DNA from: Acetobacter garciniae
GTDB taxonomy: Bacteria; Pseudomonadota; Alphaproteobacteria; Acetobacterales; Acetobacteraceae
Length of the DNA: 64,000 nt
Assembly: GCF_017377735.1 (NCBI RefSeq)
Contig: NZ_JAFVMH010000003.1
Location: forward strand, 62,001-126,000
Reading direction: 5' to 3'
The notes under the pieces were generated by a model. That model did not search any database. It was not told the DNA's origin and saw only the letters and a list, made by a program, of their open reading frames with translations. This document shows positions 1-29,889 of this stretch, one piece after another (within the stretch, counting starts at the first letter, position 1; the number at the start of each line of letters is the position of its first letter). Both the position numbers and the translations under genes were made by a program.

Positions 1-2
1 AC

Positions 3-1025: not shown

Positions 1026-1125
1026 TGGCGCGCACCGACCCGCAGCGGGCATGCAGGTTGCAGCAGCACGGAAAGGGAGCAAAGGCGGCCACAATGGGCA
1101 TTCCCGCGCATGAAGGCAAGGGGGC

Positions 1126-1935
1126 ATGATGATCGATCCGGTTCTGGAAAGCGAATATGACAACCGGCGTAAAGTGCCCCAAAGTGGCGAAATCATTGCC
1201 CGCTGGGCCAGCGATGCCGCGGCATTCCGCCAGCATTGGGCGTGGCAGGAGCCAGATCAGGCCTACGGCGCCACCGCGCGCGAAATGATGGATATCTTCC
1301 TGCCGGGTCCCGATCGGGATGTGCCGATGGTCCTGTTTTTCCATGGAGGTTATTGGCGGGCCCTTGATCGCAGGATCAATAGCCATTTCGCAAGGGGCTT
1401 GCTGGCGCACGGGGTTGGAGTGGCCATGGCCTCATACGATCTGTGCCCTTCGGTGTCGCTTGCCACCCTTGTCGCCCAGGCACAAGGTGCTGCAGGCTGG
1501 CTCGCCCGGCGTCAGGGGCGGCGCATTCTCGCCAGTGGCCATTCGGCCGGGGGGCATCTGGCCGCCATGACCGCCCTCCATGATGGCAGCAGGGTGCATC
1601 CTGTCGCGGCGTGCGTGGCGTTCAGCGGACTGTTTGACCTGGTGCCCCTTGTATCGACCAGCATCAACGCAGATCTGGGGCTGGATAGGGCGACGGCCAT
1701 GCAGCTTTCCCCCATGCGGCTGCCCGCGCCGGACCTACCTTTTCTGGGGGTGTTTGGTGCGGAGGAAGGGCGCGAATATGCAAGGCAGAGCAACGACATG
1801 GCGCGGGTCTGGGGCGGGCGCAGCCTGGCTGTCGCGCAGGCCAATCATTTCACGGTTCTCGACGGGCTGACCGATCCAACGTCCGGGCCGACCCAGGCCA
1901 TGGCCGCCATGGCTTGTGAACTTTCCCGGGCTTGA
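1126..1935 (+). CDS. alpha/beta hydrolase, arylformamidase/esterase-like
   Basis: A 269-residue alpha/beta hydrolase without a signal peptide. The oxyanion-hole motif HGGYW is at residues 73-77, the nucleophile elbow GHSAGGH places the serine at 140, and the likely catalytic histidine is H241 in ANHFTVLD. The acid is probably E213 or E214. The HGGxW plus GHSAGGH pattern is typical of kynurenine formamidase-like and carboxylesterase enzymes of the hormone-sensitive-lipase type. ATG is preceded by AAGGCAAGGGGG. It follows a TonB receptor in the same direction and converges on a MarR regulator, so a job in processing an imported ester or amide is plausible. The substrate is unknown. Confidence 0.85.
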   Translation: MMIDPVLESEYDNRRKVPQSGEIIARWASDAAAFRQHWAWQEPDQAYGATAREMMDIFLPGPDRDVPMVLFFHGGYWRALDRRINSHFARGLLAHGVGVAMASYDLCPSVSLATLVAQAQGAAGWLARRQGRRILASGHSAGGHLAAMTALHDGSRVHPVAACVAFSGLFDLVPLVSTSINADLGLDRATAMQLSPMRLPAPDLPFLGVFGAEEGREYARQSNDMARVWGGRSLAVAQANHFTVLDGLTDPTSGPTQAMAAMACELSRA

Positions 1936-1951: not shown

Positions 1952-2440
1952 TCAGTCCGTATGTTCCAGCGCCAAGGCCGATGCCTTGAGCCGCCCCAGC
2001 AGCCCGAGCAACAGGGTTTGTTCATCCGTATCGAGCGTGCCGACGATTTTTGTAATCCAGTGCTGGTGCCTGGCGGCCATGCGCGCGAAAAGTTTTTCGC
2101 CCTTGCGGGTCAGGCAGACCAGAATGCTCCGCCCATCCTCCGGATGGGGTGAACGCGAGACCAGACCGTCCTTGAGCATGGTGTCGACAAGCCCCGTAAC
2201 ATTTCCCCCCGTTACCATCAGGCGCTTGGAAAGCACCTGCATGGTCAGCGGCGACTGCGCGGAATGAAGCTGCGCCATCACATCGAACCGGGCCAGGGTG
2301 GTCTTGAATTCCTCCCGGAACTGCACGCGAATGTCGCGTTGGATGATTTGCGTACAGGACAGCAACCGCAACCAGACGCGCAGGCTCAGTTTATCGGAAC
2401 TGTTCTCGGTAATGTCCTCGTCGATCTTGTCCAAAGCCAT
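1952..2440 (-). CDS. MarR-family transcriptional regulator
   Basis: A 162-residue winged-helix protein. The central helix-turn-helix covers about residues 60-95 (LTMQVLSKRLMVTGGNVTGL) and the wing carries the family signature DGRSILVCLTRKG. The long N-terminal and C-terminal helices match the MarR dimerisation fold. MarR proteins usually repress neighbouring catabolic or efflux genes and are released by small aromatic ligands. It is convergent with the hydrolase, ending 17 bases from it. Its own promoter must lie in the 263-base gap shared with the LuxR gene at 2704, so either direction could be regulated from there. The ligand is unknown. Confidence 0.9.
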   Translation of the reverse strand: MALDKIDEDITENSSDKLSLRVWLRLLSCTQIIQRDIRVQFREEFKTTLARFDVMAQLHSAQSPLTMQVLSKRLMVTGGNVTGLVDTMLKDGLVSRSPHPEDGRSILVCLTRKGEKLFARMAARHQHWITKIVGTLDTDEQTLLLGLLGRLKASALALEHTD

Positions 2441-2703: not shown

Positions 2704-3450
2704 ATGCCCATTCAAGCAGCCCCCGACGATATGCGCCTGGCCAATCAGATGCTGTGTATCGGCGAAAGTTCGTGCGTGGCGGATCTGGCGAAAAGCCTGC
2801 GCGTATCGCTGGCGGAAACCACATGGTCCTCCGCCCTGGGGTTATACATGTTCAACGGCTCCGACCTGCAGAACCTGTTATGCCTTGGCGTGCCAGAAGG
2901 GTTTGTTGCCGAATACCGTGACCTTATCGGCTCAAGCGATCCTTTGCTGCAAAATGTGCTTGCACATCGTAGCCCCGTGGACGGGCGGGCCCTCCTTGGG
3001 GCAAAGTCATGGAGTGGCAGTTCCATAGGGGCCCTTTTGCTGCGGTGGAATTTGCACCATCACATGTGCGGCCCCATTTTTTTCGATGGGCAGGTAAAAG
3101 GTATTATCTATACCGCAAGCATACATCCGACACGCCCCTATACAGCCAGTTCTGTCGCGTTCATGGACTGTCTGTGCCGTGCCGCATCTCTGGCAATGGC
3201 GCGTCTTAACGGGTGTTCAGCGGGGCCTGCCCCGCATCAGAAACGGCCGGTTCTTGCCGGGCGGGCGAGGGATGTTTCGCTCTTGTTATGCAAGGGAGCC
3301 ACGAACAAGGAAATTGCCCGCTGCCTGGATATTTCCGCCGTCACGGTCAAGGAACACGTCCAGGTGCTTTTTCGCAAATTCGGCTGTCGCAACAGGACGG
3401 AACTGGTAAGTGTTCTGTCACGATCATATGCCAGCGAACTGGATTTTTAA
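2704..3450 (+). CDS. LuxR-family transcriptional regulator
   Basis: A 248-residue regulator. The C-terminal quarter (about 180-240) is a GerE/LuxR helix-turn-helix with the typical NKEIARCLDISAVTVKEHV core and a following LFRKFGCRNRTEL recognition segment. The N-terminal part (about 10-170) looks like a GAF or autoinducer-type sensory domain; I see neither a receiver aspartate context nor clear N-acyl-homoserine-lactone residues. The ATG at 2704 has GAGGAG 6-11 bases upstream. It is followed at 68 bases by the stand-alone Lrp/AsnC ligand domain gene in the same direction. The base composition is lower in GC than the flanks. It likely controls the neighbouring transport cluster; the signal is unknown. 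Confidence 0.88.
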   Translation: MPIQAAPDDMRLANQMLCIGESSCVADLAKSLRVSLAETTWSSALGLYMFNGSDLQNLLCLGVPEGFVAEYRDLIGSSDPLLQNVLAHRSPVDGRALLGAKSWSGSSIGALLLRWNLHHHMCGPIFFDGQVKGIIYTASIHPTRPYTASSVAFMDCLCRAASLAMARLNGCSAGPAPHQKRPVLAGRARDVSLLLCKGATNKEIARCLDISAVTVKEHVQVLFRKFGCRNRTELVSVLSRSYASELDF

Positions 3451-3517
3451 GGGTTCGAATATGATTTTCTTTCTGAAAACAGCCTGCTATAAAAGATAAT
3501 AAAGGAAGCACCGTATC

Positions 3518-3814
3518 ATGTCGTCGCACGTCACGCCGTTACCGTCGTTCAAGCCCCGATGCCTGTTTGTCATGATCAAGTGTCAGTTGGGGAAAGCGTA
3601 TTCCGTGGCGGAATTCATTGTGGATAATATCCCGCAATGCCGCGAAATTTATTCAATCTCGGGCGATTACGATGTCATGGTCCAGTGTTTTCTCGACCCG
3701 TCGCAAGATCCCGGCCTTTTTGTTACACAGACGCTCCAGAGCGTAAAGGGGATTGCAGATACCAAGACAATATTGGCGTTCAACGCCTTTACGCCGCGTG
3801 AGCATCCAGCATGA
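3518..3814 (+). CDS. stand-alone Lrp/AsnC ligand-binding (RAM) domain protein
   Basis: Only 98 residues, with the alpha-beta sandwich pattern of the C-terminal effector domain of Lrp/AsnC regulators: a CLFVMIKC strand, a helix with VAEFIVDNIPQC, then YSISGDYDVMVQC, the hallmark 'ISGDYD' turn, and a final helix and strand (GIADTKTILAFN). There is no DNA-binding helix-turn-helix. Such proteins bind amino acids as oligomers and may act by hetero-oligomerising with complete Lrp proteins or by tuning enzymes. AAGGA lies about 11 bases before the ATG. It sits between the LuxR gene and the convergent LysR gene, which makes it a likely amino-acid sensing part of the adjacent uptake system. Confidence 0.85.
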   Translation: MSSHVTPLPSFKPRCLFVMIKCQLGKAYSVAEFIVDNIPQCREIYSISGDYDVMVQCFLDPSQDPGLFVTQTLQSVKGIADTKTILAFNAFTPREHPA

Positions 3815-3861
3815 CCGTTCCCGCCATGCCCATCCGGGAGCAATGGACCATAGCCTTCCTG

Positions 3862-4800
3862 CTACCTGAATAAAAAACCGCCCGTCAGAACGCCCTGCGT
3901 GAATTCTGTGATTTTCTGTTTGGCGTTGAGGGAAACAAGCTCTTTCAGCCTGACCGTTGCATCTGATTCGGTTTTCCATTTCGGGACCACAAATCCGTAG
4001 GGAAGCGTAATTGTCGGCATGAATTTTTTCATGACTAGATCGCGGCCGCCACTGGTCAGCGCCACAAAAGGGTCGGCCAGCGTCAAGCCCAGCCCCATTG
4101 CGCAAAGCTGGCAGGCTGTCGTGCCGTTTGTTGCTTCAAAAGAAAATTCGAAGTTGCGGTCCATGTTTTCGAACAATCTCTGAAGATGCATCCGTAGTAT
4201 GGAACGTGAATGTGTAACAATCAGCGGTTCATCGACAAGGTCGCTGAATGTGATTTGAGCTTTGTCAGCCAGCTGGTGGTCGTTCTTCATGATGACCATG
4301 GCTTCCACCCGGCAGAACTCAGTCACGGAAACCGCTGGATGTGACAGGGGAAGGGTGGTTATCCCCAGATCGAAGTTTTCATTACCGACCCAGTTCTCGA
4401 TATCGATCCTGTCTCTGACTTCAACCGATACGCTGAAAGCTTTTCTTTCCGAGCGCATGATGGAGAGCGCATCGCCAAGAATGGCGCGCAGTATCAGGGG
4501 TGAGATCATTATTTTCAGATGATTGCGGCGTGGATCGGCGCGGAGTTCCGCAGTAAGGCTTTCCAATCCTTCCATGCTGGCCAGAACGCGTTCGACCTGC
4601 CGATAGTAGCGCCAGCCATTATCGGTGGGGGACAGGCGTTTGTTGGAGCGGTTGAACAGCGTAATGCCCGCCTCCTGTTCCAATGATACCAGAAGCCGGC
4701 CCGTTTGCGGCTGTGTTCGCCCGATACGTTTGGCGGCAGCGGACACCGATCCTGTTTCCATAAAGCCCTTGAAGGCACGCAGCGCACCGATATTAGGCAT
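3862..4800 (-). CDS. LysR-type transcriptional regulator
   Basis: A 312-residue LTTR. The N-terminal winged helix-turn-helix spans residues 1-60 (ALRAFKGFMETGSVSAAAKR, then RTQPQTGRLLVSLEQEAG). The remainder is a periplasmic-binding-protein-like effector domain. It is divergent from the TonB receptor at 5194 across a 393-base AT-rich gap, the usual layout for an LTTR and its target. A 5-10-5 dyad, GCGAA/TTCGC, sits at 4819-4838 just before its start and could be an autoregulatory site. It probably activates the receptor-ABC-transferase series downstream. The inducer is unknown. Confidence 0.92.
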   Translation of the reverse strand: MPNIGALRAFKGFMETGSVSAAAKRIGRTQPQTGRLLVSLEQEAGITLFNRSNKRLSPTDNGWRYYRQVERVLASMEGLESLTAELRADPRRNHLKIMISPLILRAILGDALSIMRSERKAFSVSVEVRDRIDIENWVGNENFDLGITTLPLSHPAVSVTEFCRVEAMVIMKNDHQLADKAQITFSDLVDEPLIVTHSRSILRMHLQRLFENMDRNFEFSFEATNGTTACQLCAMGLGLTLADPFVALTSGGRDLVMKKFMPTITLPYGFVVPKWKTESDATVRLKELVSLNAKQKITEFTQGVLTGGFLFR

Positions 4801-5193
4801 AGGGCATCCCCTTTATATGCGAATCACGTATGTTTCGCTCACTATTACGCATTTGATTTTATTGTCCAGCAGTTTACGTTATCGAAACAATATGCAGGGT
4901 TCGATCAAAAATGGTGTGATGAAGACGTGGTAATTGCCTTTGTGTGGCAATGACTGCAAACGGGAAAAAATAATATGAGAAGGATTTCTCTCTATAAAAA
5001 TAATATTTGAGAAATTTTATAACAAATTATAACACTATAAGACGTTTGATCTGCGTTTGTTGTAAATTTTATATTATATGAAGTGCTTTTAAGGCATCAC
5101 CAAGAATAACAATGACTTAAATGAACACGCGCATGAGTACGCACGCAGGGAGGGCTGCATTGTTATGTCATTTCTCAAGTCGGGAGCGTCGCT
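4801..5193. promoter_or_regulatory. AT-rich divergent control region between lysR and TonB receptor
   Basis: This stretch contains no gene. It is very AT-rich from about 4970 to 5090, in strong contrast to most of the window. Near the LysR start lies the dyad GCGAA-N10-TTCGC (4819-4838), compatible with a LysR-type site. A TTGAGA at 5007 with TATAAC at 5028 (15-base spacer) is a weak promoter candidate towards the receptor. The ribosome site for the receptor is GGAG about 9 bases before 5194. The promoter calls are tentative. Confidence 0.45.
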
Positions 5194-7545
5194 ATGACTT
5201 ATAACGGGACTTCTTATGTTCTTGGTTTTACGGCAGTAAGCGTCGCGCTTTTCGCGGGGTTGCCATCTGCTCGCGCGGCTCAGTCGCAGCAACTTTCCAA
5301 CGAAGCCAGCTATAGTTCACAGAAAAATGCGCATTTGCGAGATGCGCGTCATCCGACCGATCGGGCCCGTCCGCCAGCAAAAGCGCCGCGCAGCGCAGCG
5401 CAGGCGAAAGATCCGGAATATATTCAGGTCAACGGTCAGCAGCGATCGCCGTTCGGAAACAGCGCACGTCAATTGGTCGGGGTTTCTGAAACCCATATCG
5501 ACGAACAAACCATTGCGCTCCACCATGTCGTGAGCGTGCGCGATCTGCAATCGCTCGCACCAAATCTGAGCATCCAGCCGCAGGGTTCAACGACAAACGT
5601 GAATTTCTATTTGCGGGGCGTCGGCTTTAAGGATTTCACATCCAATAATACGCCTTCGGTCATGCCCTATATTGACGGCGTTGCCGTTCCTTTGGGGTAT
5701 ATGGCAGGTGCATCGATTTTTGACGTGCAGGGCGTGGATGTGGTGCCAGGGCCTGCGGGGTACACCCACGGGCAGACTGTCACGGGTGGTGAGGTCAATA
5801 TCGTTACAAACGCCCCGACAAGCACGTTTCATGCCGGCGCCAGCCAGGATATCGCCAGTTATAACAGGCTTATTTCAACGGCGTATCTGTCAGGGCCGAT
5901 TTCGTCTACGTTGAGTTATCGCATTGCGGGAACCACGCAGCATGGTGGCGGGTTCCAGATCAATCGGTATGGCGGCGCAGATTTCGGTAACGCGGATAAA
6001 GGCGCGTTAAGAGGTAAACTGTTGTGGCGGCCAGATGAGAGGACGGACATTACCTTTACTGGATCGTGGTCGCAGGACAATTCAGAGGGGCTGGGGACTT
6101 ACAACATCGAGGATCTGGTCAGCCCGATCCTGCCGCCCGATCGTAATAATCTTATGACAGGCTGGGGATTCCGCAAGGAATTCACGCAGTTGATCGGGGT
6201 GCGGAACGGGTCGAAGCCCTTTAATAATGACACGGTATGGAGCGCGAATATCACCGCGAACCGGGATTTCGGCTGGGCCAAGCTGACATCCATCACCGCG
6301 TTCCAGCAGATGTATATTCATAACCTGAATGACGATGACTCATCCAATTCAGCGTCGTACGATTTTTATTACACAAATAACTCGAATGTTTTTTCGCATG
6401 AAATGCGCTTGAGTTCGACAAATAAAAATTCGCCCCTGGATTGGGTGGTCGGCATGTATTACGATAAAACGACCACAAAAGCGTCTTTGTACAACGATTT
6501 TTCGGCCAGTCCGACACGTCCTTACATATCGGACACACGCTATAGCCAGAACCAGGAGGCCTTTAGCCAGTTCGCGCATGCAGGTTATTTTGTGCTCAAG
6601 AATCTGAAACTGACCGCGGGCGTGAGTCATGAGTCCGATGACCGCGAACTGCTGAATATGACAACGCAACATTATGGTTACAGCGATAATAATTACGGAA
6701 ATCATGGTGCGCTGACGAACGAATTCGCTGGTATGGGAGGCATTGAATACCGCCCGCTACGCCATCTGTTGCTGTTCGGCAATATTCGTAAAGGGTTCAA
6801 GCCAGGTGGCTTTACGGCCAATAATACGGTTATCGCGGCGCAGCTTACGCCTATAAAACCCGAATCCCTGCTGGCTTATGAAGCCGGTCTTAAGACCGAT
6901 TTTTTCAGGAACCGGTTACGCTTCAACTGGACGGGTTTCTGGTACGATTATCACGGACAGCAGATCAAGGGGCAGGAAGTCGTCGCCGGCTATGGTATTG
7001 TCGGACAATATATTAACGTGCCCAAATCGACGATCTGGGGAACCGAGGTCGAAATCGACGCCAATCCTATCCCCGGCCTGATACTCAGCCAGCATGTGGG
7101 ATATGAAAGGGGTAACTATCACGGGCTGCGCTTTATCGATTCTGCTGCGACATACGCGACTTTTGCCAAGACGGGCGTTTATACTGCAAGTTATGATTCC
7201 CTCAATCGCGTCGATGCGGGCATACCGAAGCTGACACTGAACGGAAGTGCGTCGTACAAGATTAACATTTTCCGGGGCTGGAACCTCACGCCGGAAGTGG
7301 ATTACAGCTACAGGGGTTCCGAACTGGATTATCCGGGGAACAATATCTATCGGCTTCCCGCCTATTTCCTGATGAATGCGTCTTTGACCATGGCCAGCAA
7401 TTCCGGAAGGTGGTTGGTTTCGGCTTATGCGTCCAATATTCTTGACAGACATTACGATCTGTCGCGCGAAACGGGCGCGGATTCTTTCTATGGGGTTCCG
7501 GGGGCGCCCCGCTTCATTGGGGGGAGAATGGCGTTTAACTACTAA
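5194..7545 (+). CDS. TonB-dependent outer-membrane receptor
   Basis: A complete 783-residue receptor. A signal peptide (TAVSVALFAGLPSARA, cut before AQSQQ) is followed by a linker, a TonB-box-like YIQVNGQQ near residue 74, a plug domain with FYLRGVGFKDF, and then a 22-strand-type barrel ending in RMAFNY. The plug has the conserved PYIDGVAVP and GGEVNIVT segments. GGAG precedes the ATG. It is distinct from the other two receptors in the window and has lower GC content. Only 46 bases separate it from a Pot-type binding-protein gene, so receptor and ABC importer probably form one uptake route from the outer to the inner membrane. LysR (3862) is divergent. The substrate is unknown; siderophore-type use is not supported by any neighbour. 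Confidence 0.94.
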   Translation: MTYNGTSYVLGFTAVSVALFAGLPSARAAQSQQLSNEASYSSQKNAHLRDARHPTDRARPPAKAPRSAAQAKDPEYIQVNGQQRSPFGNSARQLVGVSETHIDEQTIALHHVVSVRDLQSLAPNLSIQPQGSTTNVNFYLRGVGFKDFTSNNTPSVMPYIDGVAVPLGYMAGASIFDVQGVDVVPGPAGYTHGQTVTGGEVNIVTNAPTSTFHAGASQDIASYNRLISTAYLSGPISSTLSYRIAGTTQHGGGFQINRYGGADFGNADKGALRGKLLWRPDERTDITFTGSWSQDNSEGLGTYNIEDLVSPILPPDRNNLMTGWGFRKEFTQLIGVRNGSKPFNNDTVWSANITANRDFGWAKLTSITAFQQMYIHNLNDDDSSNSASYDFYYTNNSNVFSHEMRLSSTNKNSPLDWVVGMYYDKTTTKASLYNDFSASPTRPYISDTRYSQNQEAFSQFAHAGYFVLKNLKLTAGVSHESDDRELLNMTTQHYGYSDNNYGNHGALTNEFAGMGGIEYRPLRHLLLFGNIRKGFKPGGFTANNTVIAAQLTPIKPESLLAYEAGLKTDFFRNRLRFNWTGFWYDYHGQQIKGQEVVAGYGIVGQYINVPKSTIWGTEVEIDANPIPGLILSQHVGYERGNYHGLRFIDSAATYATFAKTGVYTASYDSLNRVDAGIPKLTLNGSASYKINIFRGWNLTPEVDYSYRGSELDYPGNNIYRLPAYFLMNASLTMASNSGRWLVSAYASNILDRHYDLSRETGADSFYGVPGAPRFIGGRMAFNY

Positions 7546-7591
7546 TAAAAATATGCGCCTGAGCGCACAATAATCCGAACTTTGGCGTAAG

Positions 7592-8659
7592 GTGAATGGC
7601 TTGAAAAGGCGAGAGATACTCAATATCGGCGTGGCCTGTCTTGCAGGGGCACCGTTTGTAAGGCGACAGGCATGTGCGGCAGTGCCCGCAGGCGGGCTGG
7701 AGCTTGCAACCTGGGGCGGTTTGTGGGGGGCTGCCATGGCGCGCTACGTGGACCAGCCTTTCAGCCAGCAGACGGGTGCGAGCGTAACGGATGATTTCAG
7801 TTCAACGCCGGTGGAACGTATCCAGAAAATAAAGATGAGCCAAGGCGACCAGGTTTATGATGTCGTGCAATTGCATGATGGCATAGTGCCGCTGGCCGAA
7901 GCGGAGGGTGTGCTCGAACCGTTGGATGAGACGTGGCCGGAGTTGTCCAATATGAAGGACATTCCCCAACGCTACAAGCGTCTTGGATGGGTCGGGATGG
8001 CCTATTCTGCCCTAGGAATTGCCTATAATCCGAAACTTGTCGGCAAGCCACCCCGGAGTTTCGCAGACCTGTGGAGCAATACCTATCGCGGTATGATCGT
8101 GTTGCCGGAAGTCAGCCATTCCCTCGGGCTTTATATCGTTCCGATCGGCGCGCTGGCCGCAGGAAGGCCTGTTGAGGATACCGAGGCAGGTTTCAAAATG
8201 CTGGAGCGGATGGTTGCGCTGGATCCGATCTGGGCGCGCGATACGGATTCGATCATGAACGCCCTGGCATCTGAAGAGGCCGTAATCGGGCTGCTGTATA
8301 AATCCCAGGTTGAAACGCTGAAACAGAAGGGAAAAAACATAGAATGGATCATGCCACAAGAAGGTGGGATTTCTTATGTTACGGGCACGGGCATCGCAAA
8401 AAACAGTAAAAATATTCGGTTGGCAGCCAGATATCTCAACATGACGATCACCGCCGAATATCAGCGTTTTGTTTCCGAAATATTCAGTTACGAGGGTACA
8501 AATCCCGGCGTTGCCTCTCTTCTGACGCCCGAAGTCCGGCAGCGATGCGGATTTTCCGCTGATGAGCGTTCCAAAATAATAGACCTGGACCAGGAATGGA
8601 TGGCCCACAATCGCGTCGCATGGGCGGATCGTTGGAATCGTGTTGTTTCAGGAGGGTAA
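7592..8659 (+). CDS. ABC transporter substrate-binding protein, PotD-like
   Basis: A 355-residue periplasmic binding protein of the spermidine/putrescine type (COG0687 family by eye). The start is GTG at 7592 with TAAGG immediately upstream. The N-terminus KRREILNIGVACLAGAPF has a twin-arginine followed by a hydrophobic stretch, so export may be by Tat. Family marks include ATWGGLWGAAM early, then VYDVVQLHDG and YNPKLVGKPPRSFADLW. It is the first gene of the binding protein-amidotransferase-like-ATPase-permease-permease series and follows the TonB receptor by 46 bases. Known family substrates are polyamines, iron or small organic amines; which applies here cannot be told. Confidence 0.9.
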   Translation: MNGLKRREILNIGVACLAGAPFVRRQACAAVPAGGLELATWGGLWGAAMARYVDQPFSQQTGASVTDDFSSTPVERIQKIKMSQGDQVYDVVQLHDGIVPLAEAEGVLEPLDETWPELSNMKDIPQRYKRLGWVGMAYSALGIAYNPKLVGKPPRSFADLWSNTYRGMIVLPEVSHSLGLYIVPIGALAAGRPVEDTEAGFKMLERMVALDPIWARDTDSIMNALASEEAVIGLLYKSQVETLKQKGKNIEWIMPQEGGISYVTGTGIAKNSKNIRLAARYLNMTITAEYQRFVSEIFSYEGTNPGVASLLTPEVRQRCGFSADERSKIIDLDQEWMAHNRVAWADRWNRVVSGG

Positions 8660-8713
8660 CGCCCCTGCAAACCCTTATGTCGCTGCTGCGTAGTGTTTCA
8701 AAGGAGAGCGGTC

Positions 8714-10111
8714 ATGCCTGTTATTGAAATAGGCACCTATAATGCCTGGAATTTACACGATCTGGTGCTGCTGAATCGGTGCAGGAAAAAGGGTGTTGCC
8801 TATGTTAATCATGGTAACGACATGCGACGGGAAGAGCCCCCGGCGCAGGAGGCCGGATTTTCTCAAAGCGGGAACCCAAATAACTCCGATGGGCGCGATG
8901 ACACGCATCCTCGCATAGCTTTGTATTGCGGTCAGGCGGTGGGGTATCCGTACTGGGCCTATTATTCACATGCGCTGCTTAGTATCGGGCTCGTGCACAA
9001 GCCCGTTCATCCTCAGGAAATCATCGCGAACGCGCTGGATGATTTTGATGTCTTGATCATGCCCGGCGGGTTTGCGACATGGGGCCTTGATCGGGCGGAA
9101 GGCATGGTGGGGGTGGATGCGACTATCAGTCGCTTCATAGCGCAAGGAGGGCGGTTTCTCGGGTCCTGTGGCGGTGCGTTTTATATGGCGACCGGCCGTC
9201 CCGGCTGGCTTGGCATTCTTGACGCCATGCCAATGTACACTCAGGAATACCTGCTGACAGGGGCAGGGATGGTGAGTATCCGGATTGAGGACGCCCGTCT
9301 TGGGTATCGGCTGCCCGAGGGTCTGGAAATGCCGTACTATCATGGGCCGGTTTTCGATAACAGTCCACGATCGGCGAGAACATTGGGAACGTTCCGTTCA
9401 TTTATCGTACCCAGTCGGCTTTTTATAGACAACCCTTTGAAACCGGCATTATTCCAAACGGAAATGCAGGGAACTCCCGCGATTGTGCATGGAACCCATG
9501 GCGCGGGTCAGGTCGTGGCTTTTTCATCCCACCCGGAGATGGGCGAACTGGTCCGTCGTGCGATCGCGATGAAAGGCTATGTATCGCAGTTCCTGCCAAT
9601 CCGTGGGCTGGAGATCATGAAGCAGACTCTTGCCTTCTATATGTCTGACGATTGCGCGGGCTTTCTGCTTATCCATAACGCCCTGGACTATCTAAATGCT
9701 TTTTCCGCCACGTCGGATTGCCGGGACGCCGGGAACGATGAATGTGAAAACGGCGGTTTTGCCGAGAGTATCGCATCGCTTGATAATAGTATCACACAGG
9801 GGCTGTCGCGTCTTTTGAGCGATATATCGTGCGGACATCCCGATATGGAAACGTTAAGGGATATCGAAATCAAACGCCTTGAAGCGGAATGGGGCCGCGT
9901 GATGGACAGGGTTGACGAAAAAGGGACATGGGGCGTGATAAGCGGCGAACTGAATGCTATTTTCTCGCAGTTGAAGTCGGATGTGACCGTGGCGCTTCGG
10001 CCTGACATGCCTTGGGAAGAGCGTCTCGTGCTTGTGGAATTACCCATTCGTATTGCGACCGCCACGCTCCGTATCATGGCGTGTGACGAGCAGTTGCGGA
10101 ACCTGGCATGA
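8714..10111 (+). CDS. class I amidotransferase-fold protein, BPL_N-like, with Cys-His-Glu triad
   Basis: A 465-residue cytoplasmic protein. The ATG at 8714 is preceded by AAGGAG; an upstream GTG at 8693 lacks such a site. Residues about 65-290 have the class I glutamine amidotransferase fold as in biotin-ligase N-terminal (BPL_N) domains: VLIMPGGFATWGLD, the nucleophile elbow GSCGGAFY with C152, and SSHPEMGE supplying H273 and E275. All three triad residues are therefore present. The last 120 residues are helical and unlike anything I recognise. The gene sits inside the ABC importer operon and overlaps the ATPase gene by 4 bases, so it is co-translated with transport. A role as an amidase on the imported compound is inference. 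Confidence 0.78.
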   Translation: MPVIEIGTYNAWNLHDLVLLNRCRKKGVAYVNHGNDMRREEPPAQEAGFSQSGNPNNSDGRDDTHPRIALYCGQAVGYPYWAYYSHALLSIGLVHKPVHPQEIIANALDDFDVLIMPGGFATWGLDRAEGMVGVDATISRFIAQGGRFLGSCGGAFYMATGRPGWLGILDAMPMYTQEYLLTGAGMVSIRIEDARLGYRLPEGLEMPYYHGPVFDNSPRSARTLGTFRSFIVPSRLFIDNPLKPALFQTEMQGTPAIVHGTHGAGQVVAFSSHPEMGELVRRAIAMKGYVSQFLPIRGLEIMKQTLAFYMSDDCAGFLLIHNALDYLNAFSATSDCRDAGNDECENGGFAESIASLDNSITQGLSRLLSDISCGHPDMETLRDIEIKRLEAEWGRVMDRVDEKGTWGVISGELNAIFSQLKSDVTVALRPDMPWEERLVLVELPIRIATATLRIMACDEQLRNLA

Positions 10112-11202
10112 AACAGCAGCATTCTCCAATCGACGGGTCGCAGGCCGATGTCGTTCTTGCCGGCGTTGAAAAGCGCTATGGAAACACAATTGCTTTGCGT
10201 TCCATGGACCTGAGTATAGAGCGCGGGGAATTGTTCGCCCTGCTTGGCCCAAGCGGGTGCGGGAAGTCGACCACGCTGCGCCTGATTGCAGGCTTTGAGC
10301 AACCCAGTGCCGGGCGTGTCTTCGTGCGTGGGAACGACGTTACGCGTATTCCGTCCTCGAAAAGAAATTTCGGGATAGTTTTCCAGGGTTTCGCGCTGTT
10401 TCCGCATATGACTGTCGCGCAGAATGTCGGCTTCGGCCTAAGAATGCGTAAATTGCAGAAATCCGAGATGAAGCAACGTGTCATGTCTGCGCTGGAACTG
10501 GTCGGGCTCGACCATCTGGCGGATCGGTATCCACGGCAATTGTCAGGCGGGCAGCAACAGCGTGCGGCGCTGGCCCGGGCCATTGTGATCGAGCCGGATG
10601 TTCTTGTGCTGGACGAACCCATGAGTGCGCTGGACAAGATCCTGCGGGACCGCATGCAGGTCGAGATCAGGCGGATCCAGCAGCGGTTGAAAATGACGAC
10701 AATCCTGGTGACACACGATCAGGAAGAAGCATTGGGCATGGCCGATCGTGTGGGTGTGCTGAATGGTGGGCGGATTGAGCAGGTCGGCACACCCCGTTCG
10801 ATTTATGAGACTCCGAGAACCACCTTTGTCGCTACGTTTCTGGGCGCCAGTAACCTGCTGACCGGCAAAGTGGAAGGATATGACGGCGCGCAGGCCGCCA
10901 TCAGCGTGGCAGGCCGTGTGATATCCATACCCCGCGGGGGATTGGAGCGGGGTGCTACGGTCCCCTTGTCGCTTCGTCCCGAGAAAATCCGCCTCTGCGC
11001 TCACAGTCCGTTTATGGGGAAGGTGAAGGAGATGACCTATAAAGGGTCCACGACCTATGTCGAGGTGGACGTGAACGGGGTCTCCTTTGCGATTTCAGGC
11101 GACAGCGCGCAGATACGTGGCCAGCATTGCGAGGTCGGGAATCTGGTCGGCCTTGAATGGGACGCGCGCGATGTGGTTGTGCTGGAGGATGTGGCGTCAT
11201 GA
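10108..11202 (+). CDS. ABC transporter ATP-binding protein, PotA-like
   Basis: A 364-residue importer ATPase. Walker A GPSGCGKST is at residues 47-55, the Q-loop lies in GIVFQGFALFPHM, the signature is LSGGQQQR, Walker B is VLVLDEP with the D-loop SALD, and the switch histidine is in ILVTHDQEEA. The C-terminal 120 residues form a TOBE/OB regulatory domain (FLGASNLLTG onward, SLRPEKIRL), as in PotA, FbpC and MalK. It overlaps the preceding amidotransferase-like gene (ATGA) and the following permease gene (ATGA), which indicates tight translational coupling. It energises uptake through the two permeases at 11199 and 12044. Confidence 0.95.
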   Translation: MKQQHSPIDGSQADVVLAGVEKRYGNTIALRSMDLSIERGELFALLGPSGCGKSTTLRLIAGFEQPSAGRVFVRGNDVTRIPSSKRNFGIVFQGFALFPHMTVAQNVGFGLRMRKLQKSEMKQRVMSALELVGLDHLADRYPRQLSGGQQQRAALARAIVIEPDVLVLDEPMSALDKILRDRMQVEIRRIQQRLKMTTILVTHDQEEALGMADRVGVLNGGRIEQVGTPRSIYETPRTTFVATFLGASNLLTGKVEGYDGAQAAISVAGRVISIPRGGLERGATVPLSLRPEKIRLCAHSPFMGKVKEMTYKGSTTYVEVDVNGVSFAISGDSAQIRGQHCEVGNLVGLEWDARDVVVLEDVAS

Positions 11203-12047
11203 TCCCCGCATATTACAAGGCGCCACGAACGCTTCTGGCCATATTGCCCCTTTGTTTTCTGGCACTTTTTTTTCTGGTGCCTGTCGGTTATTTATTTATC
11301 CTGAGCTTTGTTGAAGGCAACGCCTTTGGTGGTGCCCATTGGACATTCACCACCGCAAATTATACCGGCATGTTAGGAGACAGGTTCTATATCGTTATCG
11401 CTGTCAGGACGATATCCATATCCCTTATAGCGTGCGTTCTTAATGTAATACTGGCGTTTCCTGTTGCACTGTTCGCGGCCCGTCTTCAGTCGGTATGGAA
11501 ATCTGTTTTCCTGACGATTGCCACAGTGCCCCTGATGGTCAGCAATATCGTGCGCGCATTCGGGTGGGTGGTGATATTGGGGCGAAGGGGTATCCTGAAT
11601 TCGGTCCTACAGTTTTTTGCACCGCAAATGGTTTTAAGGCAGCATCTGTTTTCTATCCAGGCAATCTGCTTCGGCCTGCTGACCATTACGCTGCCGTTCA
11701 CCATCATGTTTCTGACGAACGCCGTATCCGGCATCGATCGAAAAAATATCGAAGCGGCGGAATCGCTCGGGGCAACCCGCTGGGGTGTCTTTTATCATAT
11801 CATACTTCCGCTTACCAAATCGGCACTTGCTTCGGGTTTGATGGTCGTTTTCTTTCTGACGTTGAGCGCCTATGTCACCGTCACGCTGCTGGGCGGCCCG
11901 CGCTACAAGACGCTTGTCGGATTTATCTATGATTATTCAGCCACTCTTCGGTGGCCACAGGCGGCGGCACTGTCATTTGTGCTGTTGGGTATAGGGCTGG
12001 CGTTTGCCGGAATCGTTCAGCTCCTGGTTTCGGAGCGCAAGAAATGA
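11199..12047 (+). CDS. ABC transporter permease, PotB-like
   Basis: A 282-residue inner-membrane protein starting at the ATG that overlaps the ATPase stop. About six hydrophobic helices are visible, beginning with LLAILPLCFLALFFLVPVGY. The EAA loop that docks with the ATPase reads EAAESLGATRWGVFYHIILP. PotB-type proteins are the first permease half of spermidine/putrescine-like importers. It overlaps the second permease gene by 4 bases. Confidence 0.93.
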   Translation: MIPAYYKAPRTLLAILPLCFLALFFLVPVGYLFILSFVEGNAFGGAHWTFTTANYTGMLGDRFYIVIAVRTISISLIACVLNVILAFPVALFAARLQSVWKSVFLTIATVPLMVSNIVRAFGWVVILGRRGILNSVLQFFAPQMVLRQHLFSIQAICFGLLTITLPFTIMFLTNAVSGIDRKNIEAAESLGATRWGVFYHIILPLTKSALASGLMVVFFLTLSAYVTVTLLGGPRYKTLVGFIYDYSATLRWPQAAALSFVLLGIGLAFAGIVQLLVSERKK

Positions 12048-12811
12048 GGCGCATGGTTCTGTATTCCGCTGTTGGAATATCCGCGTTTTTGACATTGGTT
12101 CCGATATTTCTGGTGCTTGTCCAGGCATTTAGCGCGGGCGAAATGCTGACATTTCCGCTACCCGGGCTTTCCGTGAAGTGGTTTGTCCGCGCATATACGG
12201 TGCCGGAAATCAGGGAATCCTTTTTGTTCAGCGTTATCCTGGCTGTTGTTTCATCCGTTTTTTCAGTCATGCTTGCATTGTGCGGTGCCTTGTATGTGTC
12301 TCGCAATGGCGGGGTGCTTTCCAGGCTTGTCACTATTCTTGCGTTGGTGCCACTGGTCTTTCCCGCGTTCATACTGGGGCTGGCCTTGCTGTTTTTCTTC
12401 AAGGCTGGCGGGGTCAATGCAAAACTGGGCTTGCTGATCGCGCATATCGTCATCTCAATCCCCTATGCGTTTCGTCCGCTGGTGGAGGCGCTGAAGGAAA
12501 CACCGCTCTCCCTGGAGGAAGCGGCGCAGAGTTTGGGTGCAGGACCGTTGTCATCCTTTGTGTTGGTAACATTTCCTCAAATTGCGGCAGGCGTTGGTAC
12601 AGCGTGGGTTTTTTGTTTTGTTGTGTCGTTTAGCGAATTGAGCGCAACCCTGTTCCTGGCCGGTCCCGGTGCGATGACGCTTCCCGTGGAGCTGTTCAGT
12701 TATCTGGAATTCCAAGGGGATCAGCTTGTCGTCGCGGCGGCATCCACCGCTCAGGTCCTGTTGACGTTGGGAATGGTTTTTCTGGGCAACAGGGTTTTCC
12801 GTCGCAGGTAA
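12044..12811 (+). CDS. ABC transporter permease, PotC-like
   Basis: A 255-residue second permease. The ATG at 12044 overlaps the stop of the first permease; a second ATG at 12053 is possible. It has about six membrane helices and the EAA loop LEEAAQSLGAGPLSSFVLVT. It completes the ABC importer. The next gene, 154 bases downstream, encodes the gamma-glutamyltransferase-like enzyme, so the operon may continue into it. Confidence 0.93.
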   Translation: MRRMVLYSAVGISAFLTLVPIFLVLVQAFSAGEMLTFPLPGLSVKWFVRAYTVPEIRESFLFSVILAVVSSVFSVMLALCGALYVSRNGGVLSRLVTILALVPLVFPAFILGLALLFFFKAGGVNAKLGLLIAHIVISIPYAFRPLVEALKETPLSLEEAAQSLGAGPLSSFVLVTFPQIAAGVGTAWVFCFVVSFSELSATLFLAGPGAMTLPVELFSYLEFQGDQLVVAAASTAQVLLTLGMVFLGNRVFRRR

Positions 12812-12965
12812 ACGGGACGACCGTGAAGAGGCCCCGATATTTGGCATGTTGCCCGTAATAACCGGCGCAACAGGACGGTTACTGTGTTGTCGAACATTTT
12901 TTGCAATTCGTGCTCTTCATGCTCCCCGGTGGGGCAGGCGTATCTTCTGTTCAAAAGGCAAATCG

Positions 12966-14756
12966 ATGAAAAATTTTACGACCAGGCCGGAGTTAAGCGG
13001 TACTTTCGGTGCGATCAGCGCCACGCACTGGTTGGGGGCCGCGGTTGGAAGTTCGGTTCTGGAAAGGGGAGGCAATGCGTTTGATGCCGCTGTCGCATGC
13101 GGCTTTGTGCTGCAGATTGTCGAACCGCACCTGAACGGACCGGGCGGCGATGTGGTCATGATTGTCAAGGCAGCCGGGGAAGACGCCCCTGTTGTTATCT
13201 GTGGGCAGGGTGTTGCGCCGCAGGCCGCGACAATGCAGGCGTTCGACGCCTTGAATCTCAAGATGATTCCGGGCACAGGCCTGCTGCCTGCCGTGGTGCC
13301 CGGGGCGTTCGATGCGTGGATGCTGCTTTTGCGCGATTACGGGACTTGGACGGTGGAGGATGTTCTCGCCTATGCCATCAGTTATGCGGAAAAAGGCTTT
13401 CCGCTTTTGTCGCGGGCCGTGGCCTCCATCGTGCCGGTTGCGGATCTGTTTCGTGAGGAATGGCCGTCATCCGCCGAAATCTGGTTGCCGGGAAATGCGC
13501 TGCCACGCCCGCGTGAGATCATGTTTACGCCCGCGATCGCGAACACGTACAAGCGGATCATTCACGAAGCCAAGTCCAGAAGTGCTGACCGGATCGAACA
13601 AATCGAGGCAGCACGGGCGGCCTTTTATAGCGGCTTTGTGGCCGAAGCCATTGATTCGTTTTATCGTAAGGCGGAACTGTTCGATACGACCGGACGCCGA
13701 AATGGCGGGCTGTTGCGTGGAAGCGACATGGCAAACTGGCGCGCAACCAAGGAAAAATCTGTTTCACTGGAATTTCGCGGGCTACGTGTCCATAAAGCTG
13801 GGCCGTGGAGCCAGGGACCGGTTTTTTTGCAGCAACTCAGCCTGTTGCAGCAATTTGACCTAGAGCGTCTTGTTGCCGTGGGGGGCGATCAGTTCATCCA
13901 TATGGTGGTGGAATGCGCAAAGCTCGCCTTCGCCGATCGCGAAGCGTTCTATGGTGACCCCGCCGCGACCGATATTCCAATAGAGACATTGCTTTCCGAT
14001 GAATATGCGCGGGAAAGAGCAAAGCTTGTCGGTCCCAACGCCTCGCTTGAATGGAACGCAAGTTATTTGCAGAATGCCGCTGAACGTCTGGGCGTTATTG
14101 CCGGACTTGCGGGAAGCGAGGTTCCTGCCGGGCCGGGCGGGGGCGAGGTCACATTCGCAGCCGTGCCGGAAATTGAAGGCGATACGGTACATCTCGATAT
14201 CGCGGACAGATTTGGTAATGTGATTTCCGCAACACCAAGTGGCGGCTGGCTCCAAAGCTCCCCCGCCGTGCCGGGGCTTGGTTTCTCCTTGTCCACACGC
14301 GGGCAGATGTTCTGGCTGGATGAGAGATTGCCGTCCTGTCTCAGGCCCGGCACGCGGCCGAGAACGACATTGACCCCCACGCTTGTAACCCGCGAAGCAG
14401 AGGGCATGTTGGCTTTTGGCACACCCGGTGGCGATCAGCAGGATCAATGGCCGCTGACGGTCTTTTTGCGCCATGTGCTGGGCGGGCAGGGATTGCAGGA
14501 AGCCATTGATGGCCCGATGTTCCACAGCAAGCATTGGCCAAGTTCCTTTTATCCGCGTGATTACGAGTTGGGGCGTATTTTGATCGAGGATCGATTCGGC
14601 ACGGACGTGGCAGCGCGCCTGAGCGAGCGAGGCCATAAGGTTTCCGTTGATGGAAGCTGGTCTTTAGGTCGTATTTGCGCGGTTGAACGGCGGGCAGGAT
14701 TGCTGTTTGCGGGGGCCACGCCACGACATATGCAAAGTTATGCGATCGTCAGGTGA
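12966..14756 (+). CDS. gamma-glutamyltransferase-like Ntn hydrolase, cytoplasmic
   Basis: A 596-residue member of the gamma-glutamyltranspeptidase superfamily. The GGNAFDAAVACGFVL and LNGPGGDVVMI segments match the large-subunit signature. The autoprocessing/catalytic threonine is probably T407 in GDTVHLDIADRFGN, at the normal subunit boundary. The end has GGDQQDQWPLTVFLRHVL. I place the start at the ATG at 12966 because family similarity begins there (MKNFTTRPELSGTFGAISAT) and AAAGG precedes it; an upstream in-frame ATG at 12846 would add 40 unlike residues. There is no signal peptide, whereas classical bacterial GGT is periplasmic. It follows the ABC importer and so probably splits the imported gamma-glutamyl or related amide compound in the cytoplasm. 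Confidence 0.86.
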   Translation: MKNFTTRPELSGTFGAISATHWLGAAVGSSVLERGGNAFDAAVACGFVLQIVEPHLNGPGGDVVMIVKAAGEDAPVVICGQGVAPQAATMQAFDALNLKMIPGTGLLPAVVPGAFDAWMLLLRDYGTWTVEDVLAYAISYAEKGFPLLSRAVASIVPVADLFREEWPSSAEIWLPGNALPRPREIMFTPAIANTYKRIIHEAKSRSADRIEQIEAARAAFYSGFVAEAIDSFYRKAELFDTTGRRNGGLLRGSDMANWRATKEKSVSLEFRGLRVHKAGPWSQGPVFLQQLSLLQQFDLERLVAVGGDQFIHMVVECAKLAFADREAFYGDPAATDIPIETLLSDEYARERAKLVGPNASLEWNASYLQNAAERLGVIAGLAGSEVPAGPGGGEVTFAAVPEIEGDTVHLDIADRFGNVISATPSGGWLQSSPAVPGLGFSLSTRGQMFWLDERLPSCLRPGTRPRTTLTPTLVTREAEGMLAFGTPGGDQQDQWPLTVFLRHVLGGQGLQEAIDGPMFHSKHWPSSFYPRDYELGRILIEDRFGTDVAARLSERGHKVSVDGSWSLGRICAVERRAGLLFAGATPRHMQSYAIVR

Positions 14757-14870
14757 TTGACCGCCCAAAATGGTGTAACTGTCCCACGATACAGGGTGCC
14801 TGCCGCCCGGCGTGGGATGCACGACCCGCCCCGCCGACAGCGCAAGCCCGTTCGGCGTTAACGGAGTGCC

Positions 14871-16166
14871 ATGACGAACAAACTTGCCCCCCGGCATCTG
14901 ACCATGATCGCGTTTGGCGGCCTGATCGGGATGGGGCTTCTGGTCGGGTGCGGCAACGCCATCCACCGCGCCGGGCCCGCCATTGTGCTGAGCATCCTGT
15001 ATGCAGGCCTGTTGACCTATTGCGCCATGCGCACCCTGTCGGATTACATGGAGCTTGACCCTGACCGGGGCTCGTTTCTCGCCTATCTGGGAACGTCGCG
15101 CCGGTCGGCGGAGGAATTTGTCTGCGGCTGGCTTTACTGTGGCTACTGGACCTGCGTGATCGCGGCGGAAGGGCTGGGGGGCGGCATGTTGCTGCATCAG
15201 TATCTGCCATTACCAGTCCTGCCGACATCGCTGGCGCTTATCGCCGCAGCCTGTGTGCTGAACCTGCAATCGGTCAGGCTTTTCGGGCAGGTCGAGTTCT
15301 GGCTGACCATGATCAAGCTTGTCGCCATCATAGCCTTCTGCGCGATCTGCCTGGGTGCCGTCCTGGTGACGCTGTACCACGATGGCGGGCAGATCCTGCA
15401 TGGAACAAGCCTGGCCACGCTGGCGCCCTACGGTATTGGTGCTGCTTTTTACAGTGTGCCGACCATCATGTTCACCATGGCGGGGGCGGAGATCATCACC
15501 ATAGCCCACCGCGAAACCGAGGCATCCAGCCGCACGCTGTCCGGTCTGGCCCGGCTGGTGACATTGCGCATGGTCGCGTTCTATCTTGTGCCCGTCATCC
15601 TTATCCTGCTTATTCTGCCGCTGTCTTCCGTCCGGCCCGGGTTTTCGCCCTTTGCCGATACGCTGGCTTTCCTGCATGTGCCCCACGGCAAGCTGGTGTT
15701 TGACGGCGTCATTCTGGTGACATTGCTGTCATGCATCAATTCCAGCACTTATATCGCATCGCGCGTGCTGAACGAACTCCTGACCGAGGACTGGCCACAG
15801 GGCGGCGGTCACGGTTCATCCGCACCGTTTGCATCGCGGATCCTGGCTGTGTCGGTCGCGGGCGCACTGCTTTGCCTGGGGGCCACGCTGTTCAGTGCTG
15901 CGGCCTTTTCCCTGCTGCTGGATGTCAGCGGTTATATCACCATTGTCGTTTATGGCGTGATCAGCCTGTCCTTTATCCGTTTTACGGCGGGCAAGACCTT
16001 GTCACCCATGACCCGGATACGGGCGTTCGCGGCCCTGTTGCTCAGTGCCGGCGTCATGTCCGCCATTATCGGCGGGGACGCACGGCGCGATGGCATAGAG
16101 TGCTTTCTGGTTCTGCTCGTTCTTCTTTCGGCCTGCCGGATAGGGCTGGCCCGGTCTCTGCGCTGA
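14871..16166 (+). CDS. APC-superfamily amino acid permease
   Basis: A 431-residue integral membrane protein of the amino acid-polyamine-organocation family. The first helix has the family start LTMIAFGGLIGMGLLVGCGN, where the unwound glycine-rich stretch binds the amino acid. About 12 hydrophobic segments follow, including FTMAGAEIITIAHRETE, the helix 6 region with a conserved acidic residue. It is 114 bases downstream of the gamma-glutamyltransferase-like gene in the same direction. It may import an amino acid or exchange a product of that enzyme. It converges on the LuxR gene with a 17-base gap. Confidence 0.87.
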   Translation: MTNKLAPRHLTMIAFGGLIGMGLLVGCGNAIHRAGPAIVLSILYAGLLTYCAMRTLSDYMELDPDRGSFLAYLGTSRRSAEEFVCGWLYCGYWTCVIAAEGLGGGMLLHQYLPLPVLPTSLALIAAACVLNLQSVRLFGQVEFWLTMIKLVAIIAFCAICLGAVLVTLYHDGGQILHGTSLATLAPYGIGAAFYSVPTIMFTMAGAEIITIAHRETEASSRTLSGLARLVTLRMVAFYLVPVILILLILPLSSVRPGFSPFADTLAFLHVPHGKLVFDGVILVTLLSCINSSTYIASRVLNELLTEDWPQGGGHGSSAPFASRILAVSVAGALLCLGATLFSAAAFSLLLDVSGYITIVVYGVISLSFIRFTAGKTLSPMTRIRAFAALLLSAGVMSAIIGGDARRDGIECFLVLLVLLSACRIGLARSLR

Positions 16167-16183
16167 AAGGGCGGGGGGCCTGA

Positions 16184-17356
16184 TCACGGGCTGGCGGCTA
16201 TGGTACGGTTTGCGGGGAGCGGTCTGTTCGACCGCGTTCCCATGGGAGAGAGAGTCCCCATAAAGGTTGCAAGCTGGCTCTGGCTGTTGACATTGAGCTT
16301 GCGGAATATCTCCTTCAGCAGGGTTCTTGCGTATTGCTCGGATATGCCAATAAATTCCGCCGCTATTTTCGGGGGAGTGCCAGCGCCGATATATCTTGCA
16401 AGACGCACTTCCGATTGTGTCAGCCCCCAGATGCGGAGTGCGTTGGATACGTCAGCAGGCGTATCGCCCGGGCGATTGGTCAAAAGGAGAACGGCGGATT
16501 GTCGGTTGATCGAAGAGCCGCGTGATCCAATATGGGGTAATTTCAGTATTTTTAGAAGAGTTTTTGTATTTGTCGTGCAGTTGACACAGATGATGCCGTC
16601 ATCTGGCATTTCGCTGTCCGCAAGCAGAACGCTGGTGATGAGAGAGTGCAGGGAGGACGTATTGTGCCGGTTTGCAAAAGACAGTCGGCCATCTGTGTAA
16701 GTAAAGGCGTCACCGATAAGGGATTTGAATTTGTCATTCATCATCAGGACTTTTGTATCGTTCCTGAGCAATGCGGCACCGCATGTCAAATTCTGGCACA
16801 GGCCGGCAAAACCATCTTCTATCAGGGACGCCTGGCGGTTGCCGACGGAAAGGGTGAGCGAACGGCAGATATGGCGGGAAAGAATATTGCGGATCTGGCG
16901 TTCTTCTTCGGTTTCGTTTCTTTTGCCGAAATGTCTTTGGGTGGATATTTTAACGGCGACTGAAAAAGGGTCTTGATGGATAAAGACATTCGTGCGGCCC
17001 CACTCGTATTTTTTAAGAAATTCCTGGTAAAAGGTCGATCGGGCGACCTCGGCATCGCTTACGAAATCAGCATCGCAGAAATCACCGACCACATTGATTT
17101 TATTCTCAAAGAATTCGTTATAAGGGTCCAGCCTGCAATAGGGGTCTGCGGTGTGGAAATAGTCATGAAACATTGCCACATGCCAGTTCGTGTCGAGTGA
17201 ACTGATCGACAGTTCCTGTTCCTTCGGGTTGGTCGGGACAATAACGGTTGCCGAAATTCCAAGAAGCTTAGAGCATTCCTTCAAGGTTGCGGACCATGTG
17301 CTTTCGTCAACAGCGCAGTTATATATTCCTTCAATAAGCGCATTAAGTTTCAGCAT
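16184..17356 (-). CDS. LuxR-family transcriptional regulator
   Basis: A 390-residue protein. The C-terminal 65 residues are a LuxR helix-turn-helix (LTQSEVRLARYIGAGTPPK, then IAAEFIGISEQYARTLLKEI). The first 300 residues are a large sensory region (KLNALIEGIYNCAVDESTWS at the start), probably PAS/GAF-like as in other long LuxR regulators. I chose the ATG at 17356; an open frame continues to a GTG at 17446, but an AAGGAG-like sequence lies inside that extension and the extension lacks domain character. It converges on the APC permease and is the fourth regulator around this transport island. Confidence 0.85.
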   Translation of the reverse strand: MLKLNALIEGIYNCAVDESTWSATLKECSKLLGISATVIVPTNPKEQELSISSLDTNWHVAMFHDYFHTADPYCRLDPYNEFFENKINVVGDFCDADFVSDAEVARSTFYQEFLKKYEWGRTNVFIHQDPFSVAVKISTQRHFGKRNETEEERQIRNILSRHICRSLTLSVGNRQASLIEDGFAGLCQNLTCGAALLRNDTKVLMMNDKFKSLIGDAFTYTDGRLSFANRHNTSSLHSLITSVLLADSEMPDDGIICVNCTTNTKTLLKILKLPHIGSRGSSINRQSAVLLLTNRPGDTPADVSNALRIWGLTQSEVRLARYIGAGTPPKIAAEFIGISEQYARTLLKEIFRKLNVNSQSQLATFMGTLSPMGTRSNRPLPANRTIAASP

Positions 17357-28483: not shown

Positions 28484-28625
28484 AGAAAGATAAAAAGTTA
28501 CTTGAAAAGGAAACAAATTGTCGGTACATCAGGACATGGCCGCCACACGGGTCGCGAGTGGCGCGCCGCATGGAACGAAAGGGTACGGCGGCTTGCCGTA
28601 CCCGGAGCAAGGCAGGCACGATACA

Positions 28626-29777: not shown

Positions 29778-29889
29778 GGGCCGCAGGGTGGCGACTGGCC
29801 TGCCAGCCCGCCGAGGATAAAGGTTTTCCTGCAAACGATGCGGCCCGCCCGCGTGGTTCAGGACCATGAAGAGCTAAGGACGACAACCC

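Follow-up and report, generated by a model that had tools for sequence, protein, structure and literature searches.

A conserved import cassette, often with a putative cleaving enzyme, lies next to a TonB-dependent receptor gene in Acetobacter garciniae

Results

Organisation of the locus

The stretch of DNA analysed here (the window) comprises 64,000 nucleotides (nt) of the 3.8 Mb genome of Acetobacter garciniae, contig NZ_JAFVMH010000003.1. On its plus strand it carries, in this order, genes for a TonB-dependent receptor, a PotD-like substrate-binding protein (SBP), a protein with the class I glutamine amidotransferase (GATase) fold, the ATPase and two permeases of an ABC importer, an enzyme with the gamma-glutamyltransferase (GGT, gamma-GT) fold and an APC amino-acid permease (Table 1), the successive intergenic gaps being 46, 54, -4, -4, 5, 154 and 114 nt. 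Since the last two gaps precede the GGT and APC genes, each of these may be transcribed from a separate promoter. The genes and families named by an earlier, sequence-only reading of this DNA were all found in place, and the four regulators that it mentioned can be read as the MarR, LuxR, LysR and LuxR-like ones. Judged from the sequences, the locus looks like a conserved import cassette, often accompanied by a cleaving enzyme, that in A. garciniae is joined to a TonB receptor. It also looks undescribed, as had been supposed: among the papers listed, none was found to deal with the cassette, judged by titles and the openings of abstracts.

Table 1 Genes of the system and its regulators in the window
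Feature	Position	Strand	Remarks
MarR regulator	1952..2440
LuxR-type regulator	2704..3450	+	GerE domain; GAF match just under cut-off; membership of the system only putative
LysR-type regulator	3862..4800	-	393 nt from the divergently transcribed receptor gene
TonB-dependent receptor, acetic-acid-bacterium clade	5194..7545	+	PF07715 (Plug) and PF00593 (barrel) above cut-off
PotD-like SBP, PotD/opine/gamma-aminobutyrate (GABA) fold	7592..8659	+	RR pair near N-terminus, Tat-like by eye
Class I GATase-fold protein	8714..10111	+	PF09825; PF07685 just under cut-off; Cys152/His273/Glu275; C-terminal helical region
ABC importer ATPase with TOBE domain	10108..11202	+
ABC importer permease 1	11199..12047	+
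ABC importer permease 2	12053..12811	+
LmbA2991-like N-terminal nucleophile (Ntn) hydrolase, gamma-GT fold	12966..14756	+	predicted cytoplasmic; presumed cleavage site Asp406/Thr407
APC amino-acid permease	14871..16166	+	best NCBIfam models are GABA permeases, under cut-off
LuxR-like regulator	16184..17356	-	GerE match under cut-off; membership of the system only putative

Conservation of the import core

Thirty-six GATase-fold proteins, picked from 120 listed, were aligned and used to scan species genomes. The scan recovered 33 loci, 29 proteobacterial and four from Lachnospiraceae/Clostridia, the neighbours of which were searched with the window proteins as queries. The complete core of SBP, GATase, ATPase and two permeases was present at 23 of the 29 proteobacterial loci; the SBP gene lay immediately upstream of the GATase gene in 27/29, the ATPase gene immediately downstream in 28/29, and both permease genes came next in 24/29. 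Five of the six incomplete loci end at sequence ends (L021, L022, L023, L027, L032), and L031 contained the GATase gene alone. No such cassette was seen at the four Lachnospiraceae/Clostridia loci. The core thus recurs widely, also among soil bacteria: the loci with a genus name include ones of Rhizobium, Neorhizobium, Aureimonas, Aurantimonas, Roseovarius, Burkholderia, Pandoraea, Microvirga and Bosea, a large share of the others are metagenome bins, and on two annotated Neorhizobium plasmids a divergent GntR gene is followed by genes for the SBP, a GATase-type protein, the ATPase, two permeases and a gamma-glutamyltransferase. This order is beyond chance and recurs in other genera. A GGT-fold gene adjoins the core at 16/29 loci, 3' of the permeases in 11 and 5' of the SBP in five. 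The earlier expectation of a conserved gene set thus stands for the core; the window-type receptor and APC permease, searched for at E<=1e-4 in flanks of up to 10 kb (some loci being only 3-12 kb long), were found beside 0/33 loci and so are placed outside the conserved set. At E<=1e-20 the GATase was found in 4/384 other genomes searched in the class of the host.

The GGT-fold enzyme resembles LmbA2991

The solved structures closest to the window enzyme are 6j3a and 6j3i. According to the part of the published account available, the gamma-GT homologue LmbA2991 of S. lincolnensis consists of a 420-aa large and a 197-aa small subunit, the latter beginning TCHLDVVDRW, and cleaves a C-C bond, its intrinsic role being called unclear by its authors (PMC5519988). 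As the 6j3a and 6j3i chains are 617 long, fit these subunit lengths and contain this stretch, with the Thr replaced by Ala in 6j3i, we infer that they represent LmbA2991 and its Thr421Ala form, respectively. The window enzyme is 51.5% identical to LmbA2991 (583 aligned residues) versus 24.9% to E. coli GGT. It shares with LmbA2991 and LmbA-like homologues the subfamily and the Asp-Thr self-cleavage site, here Asp406-Thr407; Thr407 aligns with the nucleophile Thr391, invariant in 9/9 sequences, and self-cleavage is predicted. An ATG at 12846 would add 40 residues that are absent from eight aligned homologues, and the start was placed at 12966 because it agrees with them. With this start no N-terminal signal was seen by eye, nor was any seen on the GATase-fold protein, and the cytoplasm, as had been proposed, is the most likely site of cleavage.

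Ten gamma-GT active-site positions were compared, with two true GGTs as reference and the numbering of Arg114 checked. In E. coli GGT, Arg114 and Asp433 hold the alpha-carboxylate and the alpha-amino group of the gamma-glutamyl moiety, and Asn411, Gln430, Ser462 and Ser463 are further substrate-site residues. The window enzyme equals LmbA2991 at all ten positions. Both Arg114 and Asp433, kept in the two true GGTs, are replaced by Gln and Met in the window enzyme and in 11/11 LmbA-type enzymes of other cassettes, those encoded 3' of the permeases and 57-75% identical to it. Ser462 and Ser463, common to both true GGTs, are Thr and Thr in 12/12, which is a mild change. The replacement of Asn411 by Gly and Gln430 by Arg in the window enzyme was given no weight, because the second true GGT has Glu at both positions. 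A second GGT-fold subfamily, formed by the five genes 5' of the SBP and two more distant ones (L018, L021), is 34-37% identical to the window enzyme; Arg114 and Asp433 are absent in 7/7 of its members.

In other genomes of the family to which the host belongs, stand-alone GGT-fold genes (L182, L190, L191, L196 and L197) lie close to a two-gene pair; that of L182, the locus scanned, was scored as PhnM and DUF1045, known from phosphonate operons.

The binding protein and the gamma-glutamyl model

The SBP has the two-lobed PotD fold. Glu171, Asp257 and Asp168 of PotD are its acidic anchors for polyamines. Among the 12 cassette SBPs compared, the position of Glu171 is occupied by Ser in all, that of Asp257 by T, S, A or W and that of Asp168 by V, I or S, with an acidic residue one place earlier in 11/12, so that the alignment there may be off by one; at least two of the three anchors are missing in 12/12. 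A polyamine substrate was rejected as the best reading on these residues, and the earlier argument that a Pot-type importer implies amines finds no support here. The window SBP is 19-23% identical to the GABA receptor Atu4243 and to the Agrobacterium opine receptors AgtB/MotA, with small margins over PotD.

The sequence-only reading had also proposed a gamma-glutamyl or amide-conjugated amine, imported whole and cut in the cytoplasm, which we assessed as uptake by a Pot-type importer with gamma-glutamyl hydrolysis. The family names agree with this model, and a Cys GATase fold is able to cleave gamma-amides. The model also has a precedent, in that the accessible part of the account of S. aureus GisABCD-Ggt describes an ABC importer and a cytoplasmic GGT-fold enzyme with the substrate entering intact (PMC10355420). 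The acidic residue beside the Asp168 position would suit it as well, and the Asn411 and Gln430 changes tell little, for the second true GGT compared is changed at both positions as well. However, the Q, M, T, T signature at Arg114, Asp433, Ser462 and Ser463 throughout the LmbA-type enzymes, the loss of the first two residues in the second subfamily and the non-acidic Glu171 and Asp257 positions speak against it, as does the report that LmbA and Ant6 lack gamma-glutamyl activity, a statement that does not cover LmbA2991 (PMC6085292). A gamma-glutamyl amine was rejected as the best reading on the enzyme residue comparisons, and we consider the model unlikely.

The GATase-fold protein

The window protein has the class I GATase fold with a Cys-His-Glu triad, and together with the GGT-fold protein it makes up the two putative hydrolase-type enzymes of the unit, in line with the two amide-bond enzymes claimed before. 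Unlike the class I glutaminases PdxT and HisH, it has an extra C-terminal helical region of about 120 residues and no known synthase partner; domain scans of the protein matched no synthase domain, and its sequence profile matched no PDB chain at E<=0.001. The helical region, the unmatched synthase domain and the position of the gene between those for the SBP and the ATPase wherever both were seen (27/29 loci) would suit a subunit that regulates the ABC importer or serves as its scaffold rather than a pathway enzyme. Such a role is improbable, to a degree close to that of the gamma-glutamyl model, given that Cys152, His273 and Glu275 are invariant in all 36 sequences chosen for the alignment despite an identity of only 33-47% to the window protein.

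Divergence within the cassette

Among 12 cassettes with an LmbA-type enzyme, those of the window and of Aureimonas (L011) were each compared with five Rhizobiaceae loci. The identities of the two enzymes are similar for the window and Aureimonas (GGT-fold enzyme, 74-75% vs 76%; GATase, 43-45% vs 46%), and the ATPase of the window is somewhat further away (55-56% vs 61%). The SBP (53-56% vs 72%) and the permeases (44-46 and 48-50% vs 75%) are much further away. By this comparison, the SBP and permeases of the window (7592-12811) have changed far more quickly than the GGT-fold enzyme and the GATase encoded with them. The reaction seems to have been kept while the importer changed; the cause may lie in the link to a TonB receptor, in the membrane of a new host or in a mixed origin.

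The TonB receptor clade and its neighbours

The named relatives of the window receptor belong to Gluconobacter, Acetobacter and Nguyenibacter, and receptors of its clade (E<=1e-90) occur in 69 genomes, the host included, out of 200 searched in the order. On short public contigs, the receptor P0121 is 91% and the SBP P0242 90% identical to those of the window; therefore, close relatives of both genes exist elsewhere. From the upper part of the match list 71 receptor loci were taken, and after L075 (receptor only) had been dropped, 70 loci from 42 genomes remained. In 44/70 loci a transporter gene on the strand of the receptor lies within two genes of it; a hydrolase-type gene on that strand is no more than three genes away in 28/70 (24 excluding PGA_cap-like proteins), and both occur together in 21/70 (17 with the same exclusion). 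For 87 control genes, each five or more genes distant from a receptor, the respective counts were 2, 4 and 0. These counts are biased, as the reference proteins were drawn from the same loci, many loci belong to related species and the controls contain no other TonB receptor clades. By Pfam, the partners include MFS, SDF and SSF carriers, M20 and M24 peptidases, an amidase, an amidohydrolase, a PGA_cap-like protein, an Ldh_2 dehydrogenase and GGT-fold enzymes. Given these frequencies, a receptor next to an inner-membrane transporter or hydrolase-type gene is usual for the clade. The earlier argument, that a TonB receptor beside a Pot-type importer is odd and points to a large or scarce ligand, is weakened because in acetic-acid bacteria the clade commonly adjoins MFS, SDF or SSF transporters.

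The receptor gene of G211 and G220 is followed by an MFS-cluster gene and then by one for a GGT-fold enzyme, which in G211 carries LmbA-type residues; the order in G134 is the same on combined evidence. Receptor and GGT-fold enzyme are both present in four genomes, that of the window included, and lie close together in 4/4 (from two 200-genome draws, possibly not identical).

Alternatively, the core may be an intact, horizontally acquired import-and-cleavage cassette and the receptor an unrelated neighbour serving another nutrient. This would account for the absence of the receptor from the GATase loci; the GATase was found in 0/394 other genomes searched in the order of the host (E<=1e-20), the flanking genes are accessory too, and upstream lies a catabolic cluster of another kind. 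On the other hand, receptor and SBP genes lie on the same strand with a mere 46 nt between them, a receptor homologue adjoins a GGT-fold enzyme in three other genomes (LmbA-type in L107, the one residue-tested), and adjoining a transporter is a clade-wide habit. We regard an unrelated receptor as doubtful, yet the least improbable of the rival explanations.

Two further patterns were seen at receptor loci. An SDF dicarboxylate-symporter-cluster gene adjoins the receptor in 19 loci (L139, L140, L142-L145, L147-L149, L152, L156, L159, L162, L165, L166, L168, L175, L176, L181), in many cases accompanied by genes for a GntR/FCD regulator and for an Ldh_2 dehydrogenase, which suggests TonB-dependent uptake of a small organic acid there. 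A PGA_cap-family protein occurs in strings with M20 peptidases or amidohydrolases in L128, L129, L131, L133, L138 and L155; the only NCBIfam match of the one in L128 is the lasso peptide Trp epimerase MslH, under cut-off.

Genome setting

The GC content is 0.46-0.63 across about 2.4-16 kb of the window (800-base windows) compared with 0.61-0.71 beyond 20 kb (4-kb windows). A clean island with an empty site was not reconstructed; the flanking genes at 1126-1935 and 18767-20047 are rare in the genus (found in 0/48 and 2/48 other genomes, respectively). Upstream of the system, on the side of window positions 1-1935 (L206, G000:C23:47000-64000), a second TonB receptor with an alpha/beta hydrolase adjoins a salicylyl-CoA 5-hydroxylase-type enzyme and a benzoate-CoA-ligase-family protein, and a large serine-recombinase-like gene lies at L206:258-1961. 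At 28536-31182 of the window, an HsaA-like flavin monooxygenase and the large subunit of a ring-hydroxylating dioxygenase, both under NCBIfam cut-offs, resemble an aromatic degradation cluster.

Discussion

From these results, a hypothesis regarding the function of the locus may be put forward, to which we give about an even chance: a nutrient uptake-and-cleavage system that imports a small carboxylated conjugate whole and cleaves it in the cytoplasm by means of the LmbA-like Ntn-hydrolase and its GATase-fold partner. The TonB receptor would carry the conjugate over the outer membrane, a molecule resembling an opine, an amide or a keto acid more than it does a polyamine or gamma-glutamyl amine, and the binding protein would pass it to the ABC importer. 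The Ntn-hydrolase, activated by self-cleavage before Thr407, would attack its carbonyl through an acyl-Thr intermediate, the GATase-fold protein may act on this molecule, or on what is formed from it, in a second step, and the APC permease may move the amino-acid-like product released. A small carboxylated conjugate is our best guess at the substrate; the sequences show the gene order and families, the conserved catalytic residues, the changed gamma-glutamyl and polyamine residues and the recurrence of the core, while location, order of steps, ligand and the roles of the receptor and the APC permease are inferred.

Several observations weigh against this hypothesis. No GGT-fold gene adjoins the core at 13/29 loci, some of which are ended by sequence ends, and the second GGT-fold subfamily is not LmbA-type. 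Neither the receptor nor the APC permease accompanies the core at the loci searched, and three of the four genomes in which receptor and GGT-fold enzyme meet belong to one genus and probably reflect one event. The gaps before the GGT and APC genes permit their separate transcription. Finally, a search of the host genome for oxalyl-CoA decarboxylase gave nothing over cut-off, the top match scoring 188 of 739 bits, which argues weakly against an oxalate-releasing reaction; this reaction was for that reason set aside as the best reading.

The cassette differs from the known systems it calls to mind. The importer-enzyme pair recalls GisABCD-Ggt, except that the accessible text on that system describes no GATase partner or TonB receptor and reports Ggt as a bona fide gamma-GT (PMC10355420). 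PotABCD has the acidic residues Glu171 and Asp257 (and, by alignment, Asp168) that the window SBP lacks, and the window adds the GATase and Ntn-hydrolase genes. LmbA2991 was studied, as far as the available text goes, in actinobacterial antibiotic biosynthesis (PMC5519988), whereas the window enzyme is tied to an importer. We tentatively propose, at odds well short of even, that such cassettes are the physiological setting of LmbA2991-type enzymes. A conjugated metabolite of the 2-oxo- or acyl-carboxylate type would there be broken down by a dedicated route, in which the Ntn-hydrolase cuts it, perhaps at a C-C or oxalyl bond, and a GATase-fold protein is the second enzyme. In acetic-acid bacteria the cassette would be joined to a TonB receptor of a clade whose neighbours point to the import of small amides, peptides or organic acids and not of iron complexes.

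The cassette places orphan gamma-GT homologues and an unassigned GATase-fold family in one common context that can be tested, and the labels 'PotD' and 'gamma-glutamyltransferase' are misleading for the window proteins. The neighbours of the TonB receptor clade of acetic-acid bacteria suggest, moreover, that it imports small organic nutrients, each often with its own inner-membrane carrier and hydrolase.

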